In this document: in pieces, positions 30,102 through 38,943 of the stretch
How the letters are laid out: each line of letters starts with the position of its first letter
How positions within the stretch are numbered: the first letter of the stretch is position 1
Source: Bryobacter sp.
GTDB taxonomy: Bacteria; Acidobacteriota; Terriglobia; Bryobacterales; Bryobacteraceae
Reading direction: 5' to 3'
Assembly: GCA_022843605.1 (NCBI GenBank)
Contig: JALHNI010000003.1
Location: 50,000-113,999, forward strand
DNA length: 64,000 nucleotides
The notes under the pieces: model-generated
What the model saw: only the letters and a program-made list of their open reading frames with translations
Told to the model about the DNA's origin: nothing
Database searches by the model: none
Translations under genes and position numbers: made by a program

Positions 30102-31559
30102 ATGACCATGGCGAAGTTCTGTCCCAAAACCTGGCAAGCGGCTTCACGCCGGCAGTTCCTCGAAGCGAGTGGCTTGGGCTTTGGAGCGCTGGCGGCCTCA
30201 ACGCTGGAGGGGGCGGCGATCGCGAATCCTTTCGCCCCTAAGCCGCGCCATTTCGAGGCGAAGGGCAAGAGCGTCATCTTCCTCTTCATGCATGGCGGGC
30301 CCAGCCATATTGACACCTTCGATCCGAAGCCGGCGTTGAATCGTTTGCACGGTCAGCCGATCCCGGCGAGTTTTGGCAAGGTCGATTTTCAGTTTTCCAA
30401 TATGGAGAAGACGCCGCTGATGGGTTCGCCGCGGGTCTTTAAACGGCGGGGCCAATCGGGCCTGGAGATCTCCGATCTGTTTGAGAATGTCGCCGCGCAT
30501 GCGGATGACCTGGCGGTGATCCGCTCCTGCCATCACGATGGCTTTACGCACGTGACGGGGCAGACGTGGCTGAATACGGGTTGGGCGCGGGTGGGCCGGC
30601 CTAGCGTGGGGTCGTGGGTGGTTTACGGGTTAGGCAACGAGAGCGAGAATCTGCCGGCCTACGTGGTGATGCTCGACGGCGGGATTAAGGCGGGGGCGCC
30701 GGCCTATGGCGCGGGCTTTCTGCCGGCGGCCTATCAGGGCACGGTGCTGCGCAGCGAGGGGCCCCCGATTCTGAACATTCGCCGGCCGGAGGGCATGTCG
30801 GATCCGGAGCAGCGGCAGATGCTCGATCTGTTGCGCGACTACAACGAAGGCCATCGGCAAGCGCGGAACGAGGATTCAGAGCTAGCGGCTCGCATGGCCT
30901 CCTATGAGTTGGCGTTCAAGATGCAGATGTCGGTGCCGGAAGTGGCGGACCTGTCTCGTGAGACCGAGGCGACGCGGAAGCTCTACGGGATGGACGATCC
31001 GATGTCGGCCGAGTTTGGGACACAGTGCCTGATGGCGCGGCGTCTGGTGGAGAAGGGCGTCCGGTTCGTGCAGCTCTATTCGGGTGGGAAGAAGGGGGCC
31101 GAGGTCGGCTGGGATGGGCACAACGAATGCGACCAGAATCACCAGTACATGGCGCGCAAAGTGGATCGGCCGATTGCCGGGCTGTTGGCGGATTTGAAGT
31201 CGCGTGGTTTGCTCGAAAGCACCGTGGTGCTGTGGGGCGGTGACTTCGGCCGTACGCCGTTTACCGATGGCGCGGAAGGCGGAGGCGGCAATCGCAATGG
31301 CCGGGATCACAATCCCTACGGGTTTACGGTGTGGATGGCGGGCGGCGGAATCCGTGGCGGCCAGGCGATCGGCAGCACCGATGAGATCGGCTTGAAGGCG
31401 ATGGAGGATAAAGTCACGATGCACGACTTACACGGCGCGTTGCTGGGCCTGCTGGGAGTCGACCACAAGAAACTGACTTACTTCTTTCAGGGGCGTGAGT
31501 TCCGCTTGACCGACGTTGGCGGCGAAGGCAACTTACTCCAGCGGTTGACCCGGGCCTGA
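30102..31559 (+). CDS. DUF1501 domain-containing protein
   Basis: ASRRQFLEASGLGFGALA Tat-like signal; IFLFMHGGPSHIDTFDPKPALN; VVLWGGDFGRTPF...GRDHNPYGFTVWMAGGGIRGG. Confidence 0.93.
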   Translation: MTMAKFCPKTWQAASRRQFLEASGLGFGALAASTLEGAAIANPFAPKPRHFEAKGKSVIFLFMHGGPSHIDTFDPKPALNRLHGQPIPASFGKVDFQFSNMEKTPLMGSPRVFKRRGQSGLEISDLFENVAAHADDLAVIRSCHHDGFTHVTGQTWLNTGWARVGRPSVGSWVVYGLGNESENLPAYVVMLDGGIKAGAPAYGAGFLPAAYQGTVLRSEGPPILNIRRPEGMSDPEQRQMLDLLRDYNEGHRQARNEDSELAARMASYELAFKMQMSVPEVADLSRETEATRKLYGMDDPMSAEFGTQCLMARRLVEKGVRFVQLYSGGKKGAEVGWDGHNECDQNHQYMARKVDRPIAGLLADLKSRGLLESTVVLWGGDFGRTPFTDGAEGGGGNRNGRDHNPYGFTVWMAGGGIRGGQAIGSTDEIGLKAMEDKVTMHDLHGALLGLLGVDHKKLTYFFQGREFRLTDVGGEGNLLQRLTRA

Positions 31560-31568
31560 AGCGGGCAG

Positions 31569-32915
31569 TTACTTGGCGAAGTAACTGAGATCGACTTCGG
31601 CGGGGGCTGGCTGGGCCGATTCAAGCGCGGCCTGATCGCCCCATTGCTTTTGCTGTTGTGCCATCAAGGCGCGCAGTTCGCGGACGCGAGTGGCGTGCTC
31701 GGGGTGGGCGGAGAGATCATGAATCTCGTCAGGATCGCGCTGTAAGTCGAAGAGTTGTTGGCGGTTGATCTTGGGATAGACGATGAGCTTCCAGCGGCCC
31801 TGGCGGACGGCGCGTTGCAGATCGCGATAGCCCAGGAAGATGGCGTCGCGTCCTTTGCCTCGCTGGCCGCGCAAGATGGGGGCGAGGCTGCGGCCCTCAA
31901 GGGTGGAGGGAGGTGCGATGCCGGCCAGTTCGCACAAGGTGGGATAAATATCGAAGAGATAAGCGAAGTCGTCGACTTGACGATTCTTCGGGATGCCCGG
32001 TCCCGCGAGAATCAGTCCGGCGCGCATGCTGTGGTCGTACAGGTTCTGCTTGCCCATCAGACCGTGGCTACCCATGGCGAGGCCTTGGTCAGAAGTGAAG
32101 GCGAAGTAAGTGTTGCCCTCTTCGCCCAGGTCCTTCACTGTTTTCACGATGCGGCCGATTTGTTCGTCCATCTGCGTAATGACGGCGTAGTAGTCGCGGA
32201 GCTGTTTGCGAATCTCCTCCGGCGTGCGCGGCCACGGGGCTAAGGTTTCGTCGCGGACTTTGAGCTCGCCGTTGTTCAACTTGTGCCAGGGCTGAAAGTT
32301 CGGAGGTAAGGGGATCTTGGCCGCGTCATAGCGGGCTAGCGCCTCCGGCGCGGCGACGCGGGGATCGTGGGGTGAACCACCGGCGAGATACATCAGGAAG
32401 GGTTTCGACTTGTCGGTCTTCCAACGCTCAAGAAAGTCGATGGCCCTGTCGGCCATTTGGCGGCCGGGTTGGCCGGAGAGGCGGTCGGCTTGGTCATCGG
32501 GGAGGGGATAGTCGGTGAACTGATAGCTGCGTTGGGCGGGGTGGTCGGTATTGCCTTTCTTCGTGAACTGATACGTGACGTAGCCTGAGTCGTTGAAGGT
32601 GGAGGCGAGATTGGGCTGGGGCTTCTGCTCGCGAACGGCGGTGAACCAGGAGACGCCGCGCTGGATCATCGTGCGGCTGGGGAGACAGACGGCGCCGACG
32701 TGGCCGCCCATGCAGTAGGCATTGCGAAAGGTGACGCCGGCGCGCACGAGCGCATCCAGGTTCGGGGTGCGGATGGCCGGATTGCCGAGCGCGCGGATGG
32801 TGTCGAAACGTTGGTCGTCGGTGAGGATGAAGACGATGTTGGCTTTGCGCGGCTGGGCGGCGAGTAGCGAGGCCGAGACGAGTGCAGTGAACTGGCGCCG
32901 GGTGGGAGAAGGCAT
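31569..32915 (-). CDS. Arylsulfatase-type sulfatase
   Basis: NIVFILTDDQRFDTI...GAVCLPSRTMIQRG (CxPxR formylglycine motif)...FTSDQGLAMGSHGLMGKQNLYDHSMR. Confidence 0.93.
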   Translation of the reverse strand: MPSPTRRQFTALVSASLLAAQPRKANIVFILTDDQRFDTIRALGNPAIRTPNLDALVRAGVTFRNAYCMGGHVGAVCLPSRTMIQRGVSWFTAVREQKPQPNLASTFNDSGYVTYQFTKKGNTDHPAQRSYQFTDYPLPDDQADRLSGQPGRQMADRAIDFLERWKTDKSKPFLMYLAGGSPHDPRVAAPEALARYDAAKIPLPPNFQPWHKLNNGELKVRDETLAPWPRTPEEIRKQLRDYYAVITQMDEQIGRIVKTVKDLGEEGNTYFAFTSDQGLAMGSHGLMGKQNLYDHSMRAGLILAGPGIPKNRQVDDFAYLFDIYPTLCELAGIAPPSTLEGRSLAPILRGQRGKGRDAIFLGYRDLQRAVRQGRWKLIVYPKINRQQLFDLQRDPDEIHDLSAHPEHATRVRELRALMAQQQKQWGDQAALESAQPAPAEVDLSYFAK

Positions 32916-32926
32916 CAGCGCCTAGT

Positions 32927-35023
32927 CTAATGGACGGCGGGGTCAGGTTGGAGAACGGGCGTCTTGCACCAGCGCAGGAGGATTTCGCGGATTTCGCCGG
33001 GTTGCCAAGGCTTGGGCACAAAGTCATCCATGCCGGATTCGGTGCAGCGGCGGCGTTCTTCGTCCAGCACGCTGGCGGTCATGGCGACGATAGGGGTTCG
33101 GCGTTCGCCGGCCTCGCGGCGGCGGATCTCCTGGGTGGCGGCGTATCCGTCCATTTCGGGCATCAGGCAGTCCATGAAGATCAGGTCGTAGTGGCGTTGC
33201 TCGAAGCGTTCGAGGGCCTCAATTCCATTGACGGCGAGGTCCACTTCGCAGCCGAGCCGCGTGACAGTATGCGAGGCGAGCAGGCGATTGACCGAGTTAT
33301 CTTCCACGATCAGCACGATGGGAGGGCGGGAGAAGCCGAGGCCTTGCAGTGCCGCCGGTGCCGATACCTTGGGCGCCTCGGAGACCGGTAAGTTCAGGGT
33401 GAACCAGAACGTGGACCCCACACCCTCCTGGCTTTGAACGTGGATTGAGCCGCCCATCGCTTCAATGAGTTCCTTCGAGATGGCCAAGCCGAGACCGGTG
33501 CCGCCGAAGCGGCGCGTGGTGGAGGCATCGGCCTGACGGAAACGTTCGAAGACCAGGTCCAGTTTGCCGGGAGGTATACCCACGCCGGAGTCCGTCACGG
33601 TGATCCGCAGTTCGACGCGCTGCTCGTTTCGGCTGAGCGTTTCCCAACGAACGGTGACGTGGCCGGTTTCGGTGAACTTGATCGCATTGCCGACCAGGTT
33701 CACGAGCACCTGCCGGATCCGTCCCGGGTCGCCCTGTATCCAACCATGGGCGTCTGAATCCGGATGCAGCGAAAGGGAGAGTTTTTTCTCGGCGGCCAGC
33801 GGCGCAAAGGTGTCCAGGACGCTCCGTGTGAGTGACAGCGGCTGGAAGGGGGCCAAGTCGAACTCGAACGCTCCGGACTTGATCTTGGAGAAGTCGAGAA
33901 TGTCGTTGATAATGGCCAGAAGGGAGCCGGCGCTGGAGCGGATTGCCTCGCCGTAGTCGCGCTGTTGACGGTCCAGGGGTGTGTCCAGCAACAGGTTCGT
34001 CATGCCGATGACGCCGTTCATGGGAGTGCGAATTTCATGGCTCATGGTGGCCAGAAACTCCGATTTGGCGGCGGTGGCGAGTTCGGCTTTCTTGAGGGCC
34101 AGTTCGGCAAGTTGCCGCGCCGCGCGAACGCGCCGCACCTGCCAACCAATGATCAAGACGACGAGCAGGGCCAGCAGAATGCCCCACTGCAGCGCCTGTT
34201 GCCGCCGTTCTGCGGCGGCCAGCTTCATCAGCCAATCGGTGCTGCCCAGCCCGACGGCGTAATGGGCGGAGATACGATGCAGCGTGCCATCCATGGCCAT
34301 GCGGTCAATCTCGCGGCGAATCGCTTGAGCGTGTCTCTCCTGGCCGGGAGCCGCGCCGGTGGCGATCTCAAGCCGTGTATTGGGCAGGAAGGTAACGACG
34401 AAAGATGCGGACTGGCAAGCCGAAGTTCTCGAGAGGGCATGCTGCACCAGGGAGCGCTGATCCATCAGAAACTGGTGCACTTCTCCGGCGCAGAGGGCGT
34501 TGAACAGGCGCGTACGGTCACCGAAAGTCTTCACCTGAGCCGTGGGGCTGATCCGTCGGGCCATGTAAACGGAAACGGGCGAGTCAATGGCGCCGACAAC
34601 GCTCTTGGGTCCGACTTGCGCGGTGGCGAGGGAGACCAAGGCATAGTTATTCTCGGACCAGGGGTTGGTCAGGAAGAAGCGGGCTCGCCGTTCGGGGGTG
34701 ATCGACAGGTTTCCCCAAAGGTCGAGTTTGCCGCTGGGAAGTAACTCCTCGGGCCCTTCCACCGGATTTACCCACTCCAACCGGATGCCCAGGCGCCGGG
34801 CGGCTTCGTTGATGACGTCCGGCCCCAGTCCGGTTGCCGTGCCATCGGGGCGGTAGATTTCCATTGGCGGTCCGTGCCAGATGCCGATGCGGAGGGCCCT
34901 CTCCGGAGGGTGATAGAAGGCGCCGTCGACCATCCAGACCAGGAACAGCAGGCTTGCCAAGGCAATACCGACGAGTGCGGCACCCGCCATGTCCCCCCGT
35001 AACTTGCTCTTCCACCCACTCAT
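32927..35023 (-). CDS. Hybrid sensor histidine kinase/response regulator with periplasmic SBP_bac_3-like sensor
   Basis: [29 protein letters not shown] sensor; [37 protein letters not shown]; receiver [24 protein letters not shown]. Several possible starts. Confidence 0.92.
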
Positions 35024-35140
35024 CCTCTGTTTCCAGAATCCCCTACCCATCGTATCGGAGCTTTGGCGAGATCCTTGATCGCCGGAGCGCAAGAATCGGA
35101 GTGAATCGATGTCTGGTGCCGTTTAGGATCGGGATTCAGA

Positions 35141-35852: not shown

Positions 35853-35867
35853 TTTCAATTTTTGAAA
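35853..35867. promoter_or_regulatory. 15-bp palindrome upstream of DUF4394-globin gene, possible operator
   Basis: TTTCAA-TTT-TTGAAA in an AT-rich patch within a GC-rich genome. Confidence 0.35.
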
Positions 35868-35949
35868 TCCGCTTGAGGAGAGCCTCCGTATGAGTGAGGG
35901 AGCGGCTGGAAATGCCGCCAAAGCTATTTCATTACAGGAGCATCTCACC

Positions 35950-37137
35950 ATGAAACTTCGCCACTGGGCGTGTCTTCACGCATCCCTCTTTTTGTTGGCG
36001 GCTTCCGCATCGGCTGAGCGCATCTACGCCGTCGATTCGCGCGCAGTCCTAGTCAGCTTCGATTCTGAAAGGCCGGCGGCGATGCTGTCGATGAACGTCA
36101 TTCGAGGCTTGCGGCCTGGCGAAAACATCGTTGGTATGGACTTCCGCCCGGCGAACAAGAAGCTCTATGCCTTAAGCAGCACGCTACGTCTCTATATCGT
36201 TGATCCGGTTACCGGTTCGGCCACTCCGGTGGGCGGCGGACCCATCACTACGAACCTCACGGGGACCCGTTTCGGCTTCGACTTCAACCCCACCGTGGAC
36301 CGGATTCGCATCGTCACCAATACCGGGCAGAACCTTCGCGCGCATCCCGACACTGGTGCGCTCGTAACGCCTGACGGACAGTTGAACTACGCCGATGGCG
36401 GTACGCCCAATGTGGTGGCCTGTGCCTATACGAACTCGGTGGCCGGCGCCACCAGCACCACGCTCTATGACTTTGATCTCGCCCGCCGTTCGATTGTGAC
36501 TCAAGCGCCTCCGAACGATGGTAGGCTGACGCCGTTTTTGAACGTCAAGGGTGACTTCTCCGATGTCACCGGCTTTGACATCTCGCCCATCGGAAACAAG
36601 GGTTATCTGACGACCCGTGAGAACGGTGCGGCCCGCGTTCAGTTGTACGAGATCGATTTCGCCAACGCCCGTGCGGTTCTCACCGGTACGGTGGGTACGC
36701 TGGACCAGGTAACGGCCATCGCCGTTGAACCCGCCGGTGTTCCGACGCTGTTCACCAATCTGGGAGGCTTGCCCGCGATCTCAGCCGTGGTGGATGAATT
36801 CCTGGGCATTGTGGTGGGCGACGCGCGCATCAACAAGTTCTTCACCCAGACGGTGGCCAGTCCCCAGCGAGTGGCGGCGTTGCGGCAGAATCTGATTGAC
36901 CAGGTTTGCGCCGGCTCGGGCGGTCCCTGTGAGTATAAGGGTCAAGATATGAAGACGGCGCATCGCAACATGGCGATTACTGACGTCGAGTTTGACGCTC
37001 TGGTGGAGGATCTGGTGAAGGCGCTCGATAAGTTCAACGTGCCGTTGCCGGAGAAAGCGGCCCTGATCGGCGTGCTGGCTCCGATGCGGGCGGACATTGT
37101 CGAGAAGAAACAGATGCAGATTTTGGCTGGCCAGTAG
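35950..37137 (+). CDS. Secreted DUF4394 protein fused to C-terminal group-I truncated haemoglobin domain
   Basis: Signal peptide MKLRHWACLHASLFLLAASASAE. DUF4394 IYAVDSRAVLVSF...GMDFRPANKKLYALSSTLRLYIVDPVTG...FGFDFNPTVDRIRIV. Globin from about 36745: TLFTNLGGLPAISAVVDEFLGIVVGDARINKFF...GGPCEYKGQDMKTAHRNMAITDVEFDALVEDLVKALDKFNVP. Confidence 0.88.
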   Translation: MKLRHWACLHASLFLLAASASAERIYAVDSRAVLVSFDSERPAAMLSMNVIRGLRPGENIVGMDFRPANKKLYALSSTLRLYIVDPVTGSATPVGGGPITTNLTGTRFGFDFNPTVDRIRIVTNTGQNLRAHPDTGALVTPDGQLNYADGGTPNVVACAYTNSVAGATSTTLYDFDLARRSIVTQAPPNDGRLTPFLNVKGDFSDVTGFDISPIGNKGYLTTRENGAARVQLYEIDFANARAVLTGTVGTLDQVTAIAVEPAGVPTLFTNLGGLPAISAVVDEFLGIVVGDARINKFFTQTVASPQRVAALRQNLIDQVCAGSGGPCEYKGQDMKTAHRNMAITDVEFDALVEDLVKALDKFNVPLPEKAALIGVLAPMRADIVEKKQMQILAGQ

Positions 37138-37158
37138 GCACTCTTTGGCTGACCAGCG

Positions 37159-37196
37159 GCCCGTCCGGCGAACTCGCCGGGCGGGCTATTTTTGTT
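37159..37196. terminator. Terminator between convergent genes, possibly bidirectional
   Basis: GCCCGTCCGGCG-AACT-CGCCGGGCGGGC stem followed by TATTTTTGTTT. Confidence 0.75.
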
Positions 37197-38943
37197 TCTT
37201 GAAGGCCTGGGTCCGGGCAATGCCGGTATCTTGTTTGACGGTGACCCAATGATTGGCCTCCACTTCGCCATAGTCCTTCACGGAGCCATCGGGCCAGCGG
37301 ATCGCGAGACGCGCCTTTGCGGCTGAGCCCATGCCAAAGTGCACGCGCAGATCGCCATGTGAGATGTGAAAGCCGCCACTGCGGACTTCATCGATGAGGA
37401 CTCGGGTGCCTACCGTCAGGGTGACTCGCGCGCCGATGGCGTCGCGTCCGTTGGGAAGTTTGGGCTCCACCAGAAGAGAGTTGCCGAGGGGAGCCAGGTT
37501 TTTCCATAGGGACGGCGCTTGGTGCATGTTGACGACGACGACTTCGAGCGTACCGTCGTTGTCGAGGTCGGCGGTGGCGAGCCCGCGGGAGGAATGCCGT
37601 TCGGTGACGGCCGGTCCGGCTTGCGCGGATAGGTCATAGAACTCGCCGTCGCCGCGATTCCAATAGAGCGTTCGCTCCTGGGCGAACTGTTCCTTGATTC
37701 CGGCGGCATCCACCTCGGGATAGACGTGTCCGTTGACGTGCAAAATGTCTTTCCAGCCGTCCTGGTCGACATCCAGGAAGGCGGCTCCCCAGCCTAGAAA
37801 TTTGGTGTGAATCCCGAGGCCGGCGCGCACGGTGACGTCGGCGAAAGTCATCTCCCCCAGATTGCGGTAGAGGGTCGGTGTGTCGTCGGAGAAATTCGTT
37901 TTAAAGATGTCCAGGCGACCGTCGCCGTCGTAGTCGCCCGCGGCTGCACCCATGCCGGCCTGTTCGCGGCCGTCTTCGTTTAAAGCGGCCCCGGACACGA
38001 TGCCCTCTTCGGCGAACGTGCCGTCTTTCTGGTTGTGAAAAAGCAGGCTGGCGGTGGAGTCGCAGGCGACGTAGATGTCCGTCCAGCCATCGTTATCGAA
38101 GTCACCGGTGAGGACGGTGAAGCCGTAGTAGTTCTTGGGCGTTGCGATGCCGGCCGCCTTGGAAACGTCGGTAAATTTGCCGTTGTCATTGCGCAGCAGG
38201 GACATGCTTTCGCCGGGTAGACCACGCGGCCCGCAGGCGACGGGCAGGCCTTTCCAGACGCATTGGCTTTTGGCGCCGGGTTTGGGAGTGTTGGCCGGGT
38301 TGAAGTCGAGGTAGTGGGCGAGAAAGAGGTCGAGGTCGCCATCGCGGTCGTAGTCGAGGAAGGCGCAGCCGGTGGTCCAGCGGTTCTTGCCTTGCGGAAG
38401 TTTGGAAGATTGATCGGCAAACGTGCTGTCGCCCCGGTTGCGGAGGAGGGTGTTTGGTCCCCAATTGGCGATGACCAGATCGGGCCTTCCGTCGTTGTCA
38501 TAGTCGCCGACGCAGGTGCCCTGGCCGAAACTGGTGGTGGGAATCTGGGCCTGGGCGGTGACCTCGGTGAACTTGAGCCCACCGAGATTCCGGTAAAGGT
38601 GGTGTTTTGCACCACGCGGCGCGGCTTGTTTGTCCAATTGGCCGGCGTTCACCAGGAAGATGTCGACCAGTCCGTCGCCATCGTAGTCGAAGAGTGCCAA
38701 GCCGTTGCCGGTGGTCTCGACGATGTAGTCGTTGTGTTTCGGATCACCAGAGACGTTGATGGCGGTGAGACCGGCGACAGAGGCGACGTCGCGAAAGTCG
38801 ACGCGGGGAGCTACTTTGCCTTTGGGCAGTGGGCGCGCGGGCTGCGCGGCACGGCCGCTGGTGGCCGAACCGGTCATACCGCCCTGAGGCCAGAGGGAGA
38901 TCGCGGCGGTGATCAGAGCGAGCGAACAAAGAATGGGCCGCAT
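37186..38943 (-). CDS. CRTAC1-family protein (FG-GAP/VCBS repeats plus ASPIC/UnbV)
   Basis: Repeated DYDGDGLVDIFLVNAG, DYDNDGRPDLVIANWG, DYDRDGDLDLFLAHY; C-terminal VEVVVVNMHQAPSLWKN...LPNGRDAIGARVTL...LAIRWPDGSVKDY. Confidence 0.93.
   Translation of the reverse strand: MRPILCSLALITAAISLWPQGGMTGSATSGRAAQPARPLPKGKVAPRVDFRDVASVAGLTAINVSGDPKHNDYIVETTGNGLALFDYDGDGLVDIFLVNAGQLDKQAAPRGAKHHLYRNLGGLKFTEVTAQAQIPTTSFGQGTCVGDYDNDGRPDLVIANWGPNTLLRNRGDSTFADQSSKLPQGKNRWTTGCAFLDYDRDGDLDLFLAHYLDFNPANTPKPGAKSQCVWKGLPVACGPRGLPGESMSLLRNDNGKFTDVSKAAGIATPKNYYGFTVLTGDFDNDGWTDIYVACDSTASLLFHNQKDGTFAEEGIVSGAALNEDGREQAGMGAAAGDYDGDGRLDIFKTNFSDDTPTLYRNLGEMTFADVTVRAGLGIHTKFLGWGAAFLDVDQDGWKDILHVNGHVYPEVDAAGIKEQFAQERTLYWNRGDGEFYDLSAQAGPAVTERHSSRGLATADLDNDGTLEVVVVNMHQAPSLWKNLAPLGNSLLVEPKLPNGRDAIGARVTLTVGTRVLIDEVRSGGFHISHGDLRVHFGMGSAAKARLAIRWPDGSVKDYGEVEANHWVTVKQDTGIARTQAFKKQK

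Follow-up and report, generated by a model that had tools for sequence, protein, structure and literature searches.

The 64-kb stretch of DNA analyzed here in its entirety (hereafter, the window) contains a gene for a DUF4394 domain fused to a group-I truncated globin, and this gene is preceded by a putative ECF-type promoter box that is common to stand-alone members of both families and to operons of ECF sigma and cupin anti-sigma genes. The reading we favor, with a probability of about one half, is that the product is a haem protein, periplasmic or secreted, that serves the response of the envelope to oxidative stress and is induced by a ChrR-type sigma factor. A single gene thus brings two families of unknown role under one testable hypothesis, namely, that a haem protein shields the envelope from reactive oxygen under the control of a named switch, the first such idea on the role of both parts. 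Truncated globins, DUF4394, ECF/ChrR systems and exported globin fusions are already known singly; what appears to be new is the DUF4394-globin pairing and the promoter link. In the literature searched, DUF4394 is mentioned in no paper, and no prior report of the pairing or of its promoter link was found. The conserved promoter and its regulon did not figure in the preliminary description of the window and are the most informative evidence on role.

The gene occupies positions 35950..37137 (forward strand, as are all features below unless indicated otherwise) as a single unbroken ORF, from the ATG at 35950 to the stop codon ending at 37137, and encodes 395 amino acids. The preliminary description interpreted it as a fusion of a DUF4394 domain and a group-I truncated globin with a signal peptide, and Pfam searches bear this out, with both domains above the curated cut-offs: DUF4394 (PF14339) matches residues 34-258 (E = 2e-70, 237 bits against a cut-off of 29.6) and Bac_globin (PF01152) matches residues 266-383 (E = 1.6e-11, 44.8 bits against 21). 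By Pfam, models and Foldseek combined, the DUF4394 domain, a predicted beta-propeller, spans residues 24-262 (36019..36735), and the globin domain (Pfam residues 266-383; 36745..37098) has helices extending to residue 394 in the model; this domain assignment is beyond reasonable doubt. A PDB sequence search with the C-terminal part returned group-I truncated haemoglobins (best E = 2.5e-13), and a profile built from 36 relatives reached HbN, the closest solved relatives by profile, at E of about 1e-24. For DUF4394, no convincing solved relative was found by sequence, and NCBIfam has no name for either the fusion protein or its globin subfamily.

The AlphaFold2 model of the fusion, built on an 85-row alignment (mean pLDDT 90.6, pTM 0.81), consists of about 20 strands (residues 24-259) and globin helices from residue 267, with the propeller joined directly to the globin, without a long linker. 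Foldseek placed the globin part of this predicted model on M. tuberculosis HbN (1idr) with an rmsd of 1.1 Å over 120 columns. When modelled alone (pLDDT 91.4), DUF4394 produced matches to beta-propellers (best TM about 0.6) and, with 19-20 strands in 239 residues, is predicted to form a compact, about five-bladed beta-propeller rather than the repeat-rich extracellular scaffold that had been envisaged.

The start codon is preceded, at a distance of 9 nt, by a Shine-Dalgarno-like AGGAG (35936..35940), whereas a longer start at 35890, present in the ORF finder list, is unlikely because it overlaps the putative -10 box described below. By direct reading, the N-terminus is a Sec-type signal peptide without a lipobox (residues 1-22, 35950..36015; MKLRHWACLHASLFLLAASASA, with probable cleavage between ASA and the following E); residues 1-18 are disordered in the structure model, and a hydrophobic N-terminus is present in 7 of the 7 fused proteins. 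Judging from these features, export of the fusion protein is very probable. The fused gene has its own intrinsic terminator, a 13-bp stem followed by a T-run (37158..37187, z = -4.2). A convergent gene on the reverse strand (37189-38943) encodes an FG-GAP/ASPIC-UnbV (CRTAC1-like) protein, and the region upstream of the fusion (30102-35089) encodes a DUF1501 protein, a sulfatase, and a histidine kinase that combines an SBP_bac_3 sensor with a receiver domain.

A chance ORF or a misassembly is ruled out by the presence of full-length homologues in 6 further genomes (67-82% identity). The full-length fusion was identified in 7 of 237 Bryobacteraceae genomes, from two genera: the window genome, a sister species (82% identity), and 5 genomes of another genus (67-73%). 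When GTDB species genomes were scanned with a seven-sequence profile, in a search that by design may leave out the window's own genome, 6 of the 7 fused loci were recovered and no further fusion; the other 74 loci kept encode DUF4394 without the globin, the globin without DUF4394, or both in separate genes (as in Thiobacillus). No further fusions were detected in 396 genomes across the phylum, among the top candidates scored per genome. In the trees of the two domains, the seven fused proteins group together (support 100/97 and 100/99), which indicates a single fusion event; in the tree of the DUF4394 half, they adjoin the stand-alone Bryobacteraceae DUF4394 proteins. With the DUF4394 family, the fusion shares a full-length match to PF14339 and a signal peptide, and these stand-alone proteins, its nearest relatives, have the same promoter box at their genes; the other DUF4394 proteins stand alone or form tandem DUF4394 arrays, and none of those retrieved carries a globin. 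The dN/dS values, where dS could be estimated (it is near saturation in many pairs), are about 0.05-0.24 in both domains, pointing to purifying selection on both halves. Searches for an origin from mobile elements yielded no phage match, and no plasmid matched over 80% of the query. Elsewhere in the phylum, loci such as G494:C116 and G534:C24 contain open frames of 500-1,400 amino acids with up to three tandem DUF4394 domains.

In the genomes surveyed, this fusion was found in two genera of Bryobacteraceae; fusion of an exported globin to another domain, in contrast, has a precedent in cable bacteria, where an exported truncated globin is fused to a large pentahaem cytochrome, lPHCtX (PMC11976967). 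In both cases, the globin is joined to another envelope domain, but the partner in lPHCtX is a multihaem cytochrome, whereas the Bryobacteraceae propeller contains no haem-c motifs. Because these proteins show that an exported truncated globin can be coupled to a periplasmic redox domain (PMC11976967), the window protein could, like them, be imagined as a module for electron transfer or terminal oxidation at the envelope, the role proposed for the cable-bacteria fusions; however, with no CXXCH motif in the fusion protein on direct reading and no cytochrome gene adjoining the fused gene, such a role is highly improbable.

The fused globin belongs to a broad subfamily. Outside the fusions, its members are small proteins that bear a signal peptide or a lipoprotein signal, and in many phyla the domain makes up a small exported protein by itself. 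With the group-I truncated haemoglobins (TrHb1/HbN, PF01152), it shares the fold, the glycine motifs and the proximal His; it differs by the signal peptide, a CX6C motif, an aliphatic B10/E7/E11 pocket and the propeller partner. In the alignment of 36 members, Phe284 (B9), both cysteines of CX6C, Cys320 (36907..36909) and Cys327 (36928..36930), Tyr329 and the proximal His338 (F8; 36961..36963) are invariant; His338 lies in MKTAH, which had been correctly recognized as the proximal-His motif. Position B10 is V/L/I/T, E7 is L/F/V, E11 is L/M, and E10 is variable; in the fusion protein, B10, E7 and E11 are Leu285 (36802..36804; Tyr in HbN), Leu311 and Leu315, without the Tyr B10 and polar E7/E11 network typical of HbN. 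The Leu at B10 and the two cysteines, which had been pointed out in this protein, are indeed present, but they are not peculiar to the fusion, given that B10 is one of V/L/I/T and both cysteines are retained in all 36 aligned members; these are hallmarks of the subfamily. The premise that truncated haemoglobins are normally stand-alone cytoplasmic proteins needs correction, exported globins of the CX6C subfamily being widespread. No described function was found for the exported truncated globins of this subfamily. In an oxidising compartment, the CX6C motif would be expected to form a disulfide, C320-C327, connecting the end of helix E to the loop before the proximal helix.

Structure prediction supports the globin fold, and the alignment shows a pocket unlike that of HbN: the distal side is all aliphatic, lacking the HbN Tyr/Gln pair, and thus offers no polar group that could stabilise O2 or peroxide once bound. 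The ligand might therefore be a different one, or the domain might even contain no haem. That the globin is a vestigial or purely structural, haem-free helical appendix would agree with the loss of all the usual distal ligand-stabilising residues; it is nevertheless very unlikely considering the invariance of His338, C320, C327, Tyr329 and Phe284 in 36 members, dN/dS well below 1, and the existence of the same domain, in many phyla, as a small exported protein in its own right. Haem binding by the fusion protein is likely. HbN, the solved relative with the same fold and the best profile match, acts in the mycobacterial cytoplasm. An HbN-like module for NO scavenging or NO dioxygenation, relocated to the envelope, is unlikely as well, because none of the 36 aligned members has the HbN residues Tyr B10 and Gln E11, both positions being aliphatic apart from a single Thr at B10, a pocket that speaks against NO dioxygenation of the HbN type, no reductase partner gene adjoins the fused gene, and ChrR-type regulation indicates singlet oxygen or peroxide over NO (PMC6852236).

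The fused gene has no neighbors conserved between the two genera; the upstream gene for a PF09859 2-oxoglutarate oxygenase is shared with the sister species (75%) alone, and the promoter box sits between this gene and the fused gene. The stand-alone exported CX6C globins, from Acidobacteriota, Gemmatimonadota, Nitrospirota and Pseudomonadota, contrast with this: of 40 loci, 10 have an ECF sigma gene directly next to the globin gene, 9 an anti-sigma gene of the cupin (ChrR-like) or RskA kind, 6 DUF4331 and 3 pirin. Among the DUF4394-only loci of the GTDB scan, an ECF gene was found in 2 of 33; in plasmid records, a stand-alone DUF4394 gene adjoins ECF sigma and RskA genes in Agrobacterium sp. 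S7/73 and is located near an ECF sigma gene in Deinococcus deserti. In Thiobacillus (L118), a CX6C globin gene and a DUF4394 gene belong to one cluster beside sigma/ChrR genes. In that locus (L118:2154-5691, Thiobacillus sp. W21), a CX6C globin lipoprotein, an SRPBCC protein and a PEP-CTERM DUF4394 protein are encoded in one gene run, which is followed by FGE-sulfatase and cytochrome P460 genes. A compact recurring cluster in Competibacteraceae (L112, L123, L130) consists of DUF4331, followed by the CX6C globin, ECF sigma and cupin anti-sigma genes, with pirin on the opposite strand and, in L112 and L130, DUF4198 and HupE/UreJ_2 in addition.

The putative ECF (RpoE/ChrR-type) promoter of the fused gene (AATCCGCTTGAGGAGAGCCTCCGTA, 35866..35890) consists of a -35-like AATCCG (35866-35871), N15 and a -10-like CGTA (35887-35890), and ends 59 nt before the ATG; it is the only match of the pattern [AC]ATCC[GA]-N14..16-CGTA in the 64-kb window. 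All bipartite words were counted in two separate sets of upstream regions, those of the 7 fused genes and those of 11 globin genes with ECF linkage; the top word was identical in both sets, ATCCG-N15-CGTA (5 of 7 and 5 of 11, respectively). The [AC]ATCC[GA]-N14..16-CGTA pattern occurs upstream of all 7 fused genes (dinucleotide shuffle mean 0.01) and of 14 of the 19 stand-alone Bryobacteraceae DUF4394 genes, a set that was not used in the discovery (shuffles 0.07). It also precedes CX6C globin genes, both ECF-linked (7/10) and other (12/33), and none of the 7 genes for globins without CX6C; at DUF4394 genes outside Bryobacteraceae the box is rare (2/34), and those of Agrobacterium and Deinococcus have no upstream match to a relaxed pattern, although a possible CATCC...CGTG variant can be seen by eye in locus L279. 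In nine loci, comprising 388 kb with both strands counted, there are 9 matches, of which 7 are the promoters of the fused genes, one is the promoter of a DUF4394 gene and one is another site. Genome-wide, the box was found 43 times against 25 for the reversed-pattern control in the window genome (G000) and 44 against 15 in G001, an excess so modest that single sites elsewhere prove little. No GGAAC-type or TGATC-type ECF promoter patterns were detected upstream of the fused genes. From the distribution of the box, ECF-type control of the fused gene appears quite likely.

Mapping of the regulon relied on pattern searches together with gene calls around the matches. In the window genome, a Sigma70_r2/r4 gene overlaps a Cupin_7 (ChrR-type) anti-sigma gene (G000:C52), and this operon has GATCCG-N15-CGTA directly upstream; in the sister species, as in several more Bryobacteraceae, the box likewise precedes the operon of the sigma and anti-sigma genes. 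Among 23 related ECF genes, 8 have the box (0.15 expected), and these are closer rather than the most distant relatives. A second ECF sigma gene with the box (G000:C70 / G001:C12) leads us to assign it to a sigma group and not to one protein, so that the G000:C52 factor would be a candidate reader among others; in G123, which has both the fusion and the box, no cupin anti-sigma of the ChrR type was found. In the window genome, the box further precedes genes for a ferritin-like Tat protein and a short-chain dehydrogenase; in the sister species it precedes DUF4331, and in both G000 and G001 a gene for a NicO/HupE-like transporter. In Competibacteraceae, the globin gene linked to a sigma gene is again flanked by DUF4331 and HupE, which ties this gene set together across phyla. 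The ferritin-like gene (G000:C73:16131) encodes a Tat-exported Ferritin_2 protein.

The transporter gene could alternatively speak for haem or corrinoid handling, whereby the propeller binds a tetrapyrrole or a surface partner and the globin serves as a haem carrier or sensor, all the more so as the Foldseek matches of the propeller include BtuG-type cobalamin-binding surface lipoproteins. This possibility is improbable: the TM-scores are only 0.3-0.6, with matches generic to propellers, no TonB-dependent receptor is linked across genomes, and the fusion protein has no lipobox.

The best parallels to the candidate regulon are the RpoE2-ChrR system of Shewanella oneidensis (PMC4336711) and the ECF11 RpoE-ChrR systems (PMC6852236), which have in common with it an ECF sigma factor with a cupin anti-sigma, an autoregulatory box and an exported effector. 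The mapped Shewanella promoters, TGATCC-N16-CGTA, control genes for a peroxidase of the periplasm and for a paralogue of ferrochelatase (PMC4336711). The ATCC and CGTA half-sites and the N16 between them are the same in the window box, but the -35 element is AATCCG or CATCC[GA] here, without the canonical TG, suggestive of a variant specificity at best; the effectors differ too, with DUF4394 and the globin (along with DUF4331 and NicO/HupE genes) in place of glutathione peroxidase. ChrR-type pairs respond to singlet oxygen and organic peroxides (PMC6852236), and this, together with the periplasmic peroxidase of the Shewanella regulon, is why we favor an exported haem protein made on demand against a reactive molecule.

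Under the oxidative-stress reading, an ECF sigma factor held by a cupin (ChrR-type) anti-sigma, such as the G000:C52 pair with the same box, would read AATCCG-N15-CGTA; once the anti-sigma senses singlet oxygen, an organic peroxide or a similar signal, the protein would be made and exported, with the Sec signal directing the DUF4394 propeller and the truncated globin it carries. Haem b would hang on His338 under the aliphatic distal pocket, and the C320-C327 disulfide would pin the globin fold. The haem domain could then remove a small reactive molecule at the envelope, most likely a peroxide or lipid hydroperoxide and less likely NO, while the propeller may hold it on a partner or surface. 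An oxidative-stress signal as the stimulus is reasonably likely; peroxide-type chemistry is suggested more tentatively. A bolder and rather doubtful extension is that a new ChrR-type ECF regulon, comprising DUF4394, the exported CX6C globin, DUF4331, the NicO/HupE-like transporter and, in places, the Tat ferritin-like protein, is a widespread envelope defense against singlet oxygen or organic peroxides. The exported globins would then act as the haem enzymes of the regulon and dock on DUF4394, a partnership that the Bryobacteraceae fusion would reveal.

Exported-type globins are also found in other arrangements: a 383-aa open frame (G534:C1:295319-296059) encodes two such domains in tandem, and in genome G060 (L018:1419-3342), a globin domain is located N-terminal to a PAS/methyl-accepting-type sensor, directly after a second, stand-alone globin gene.
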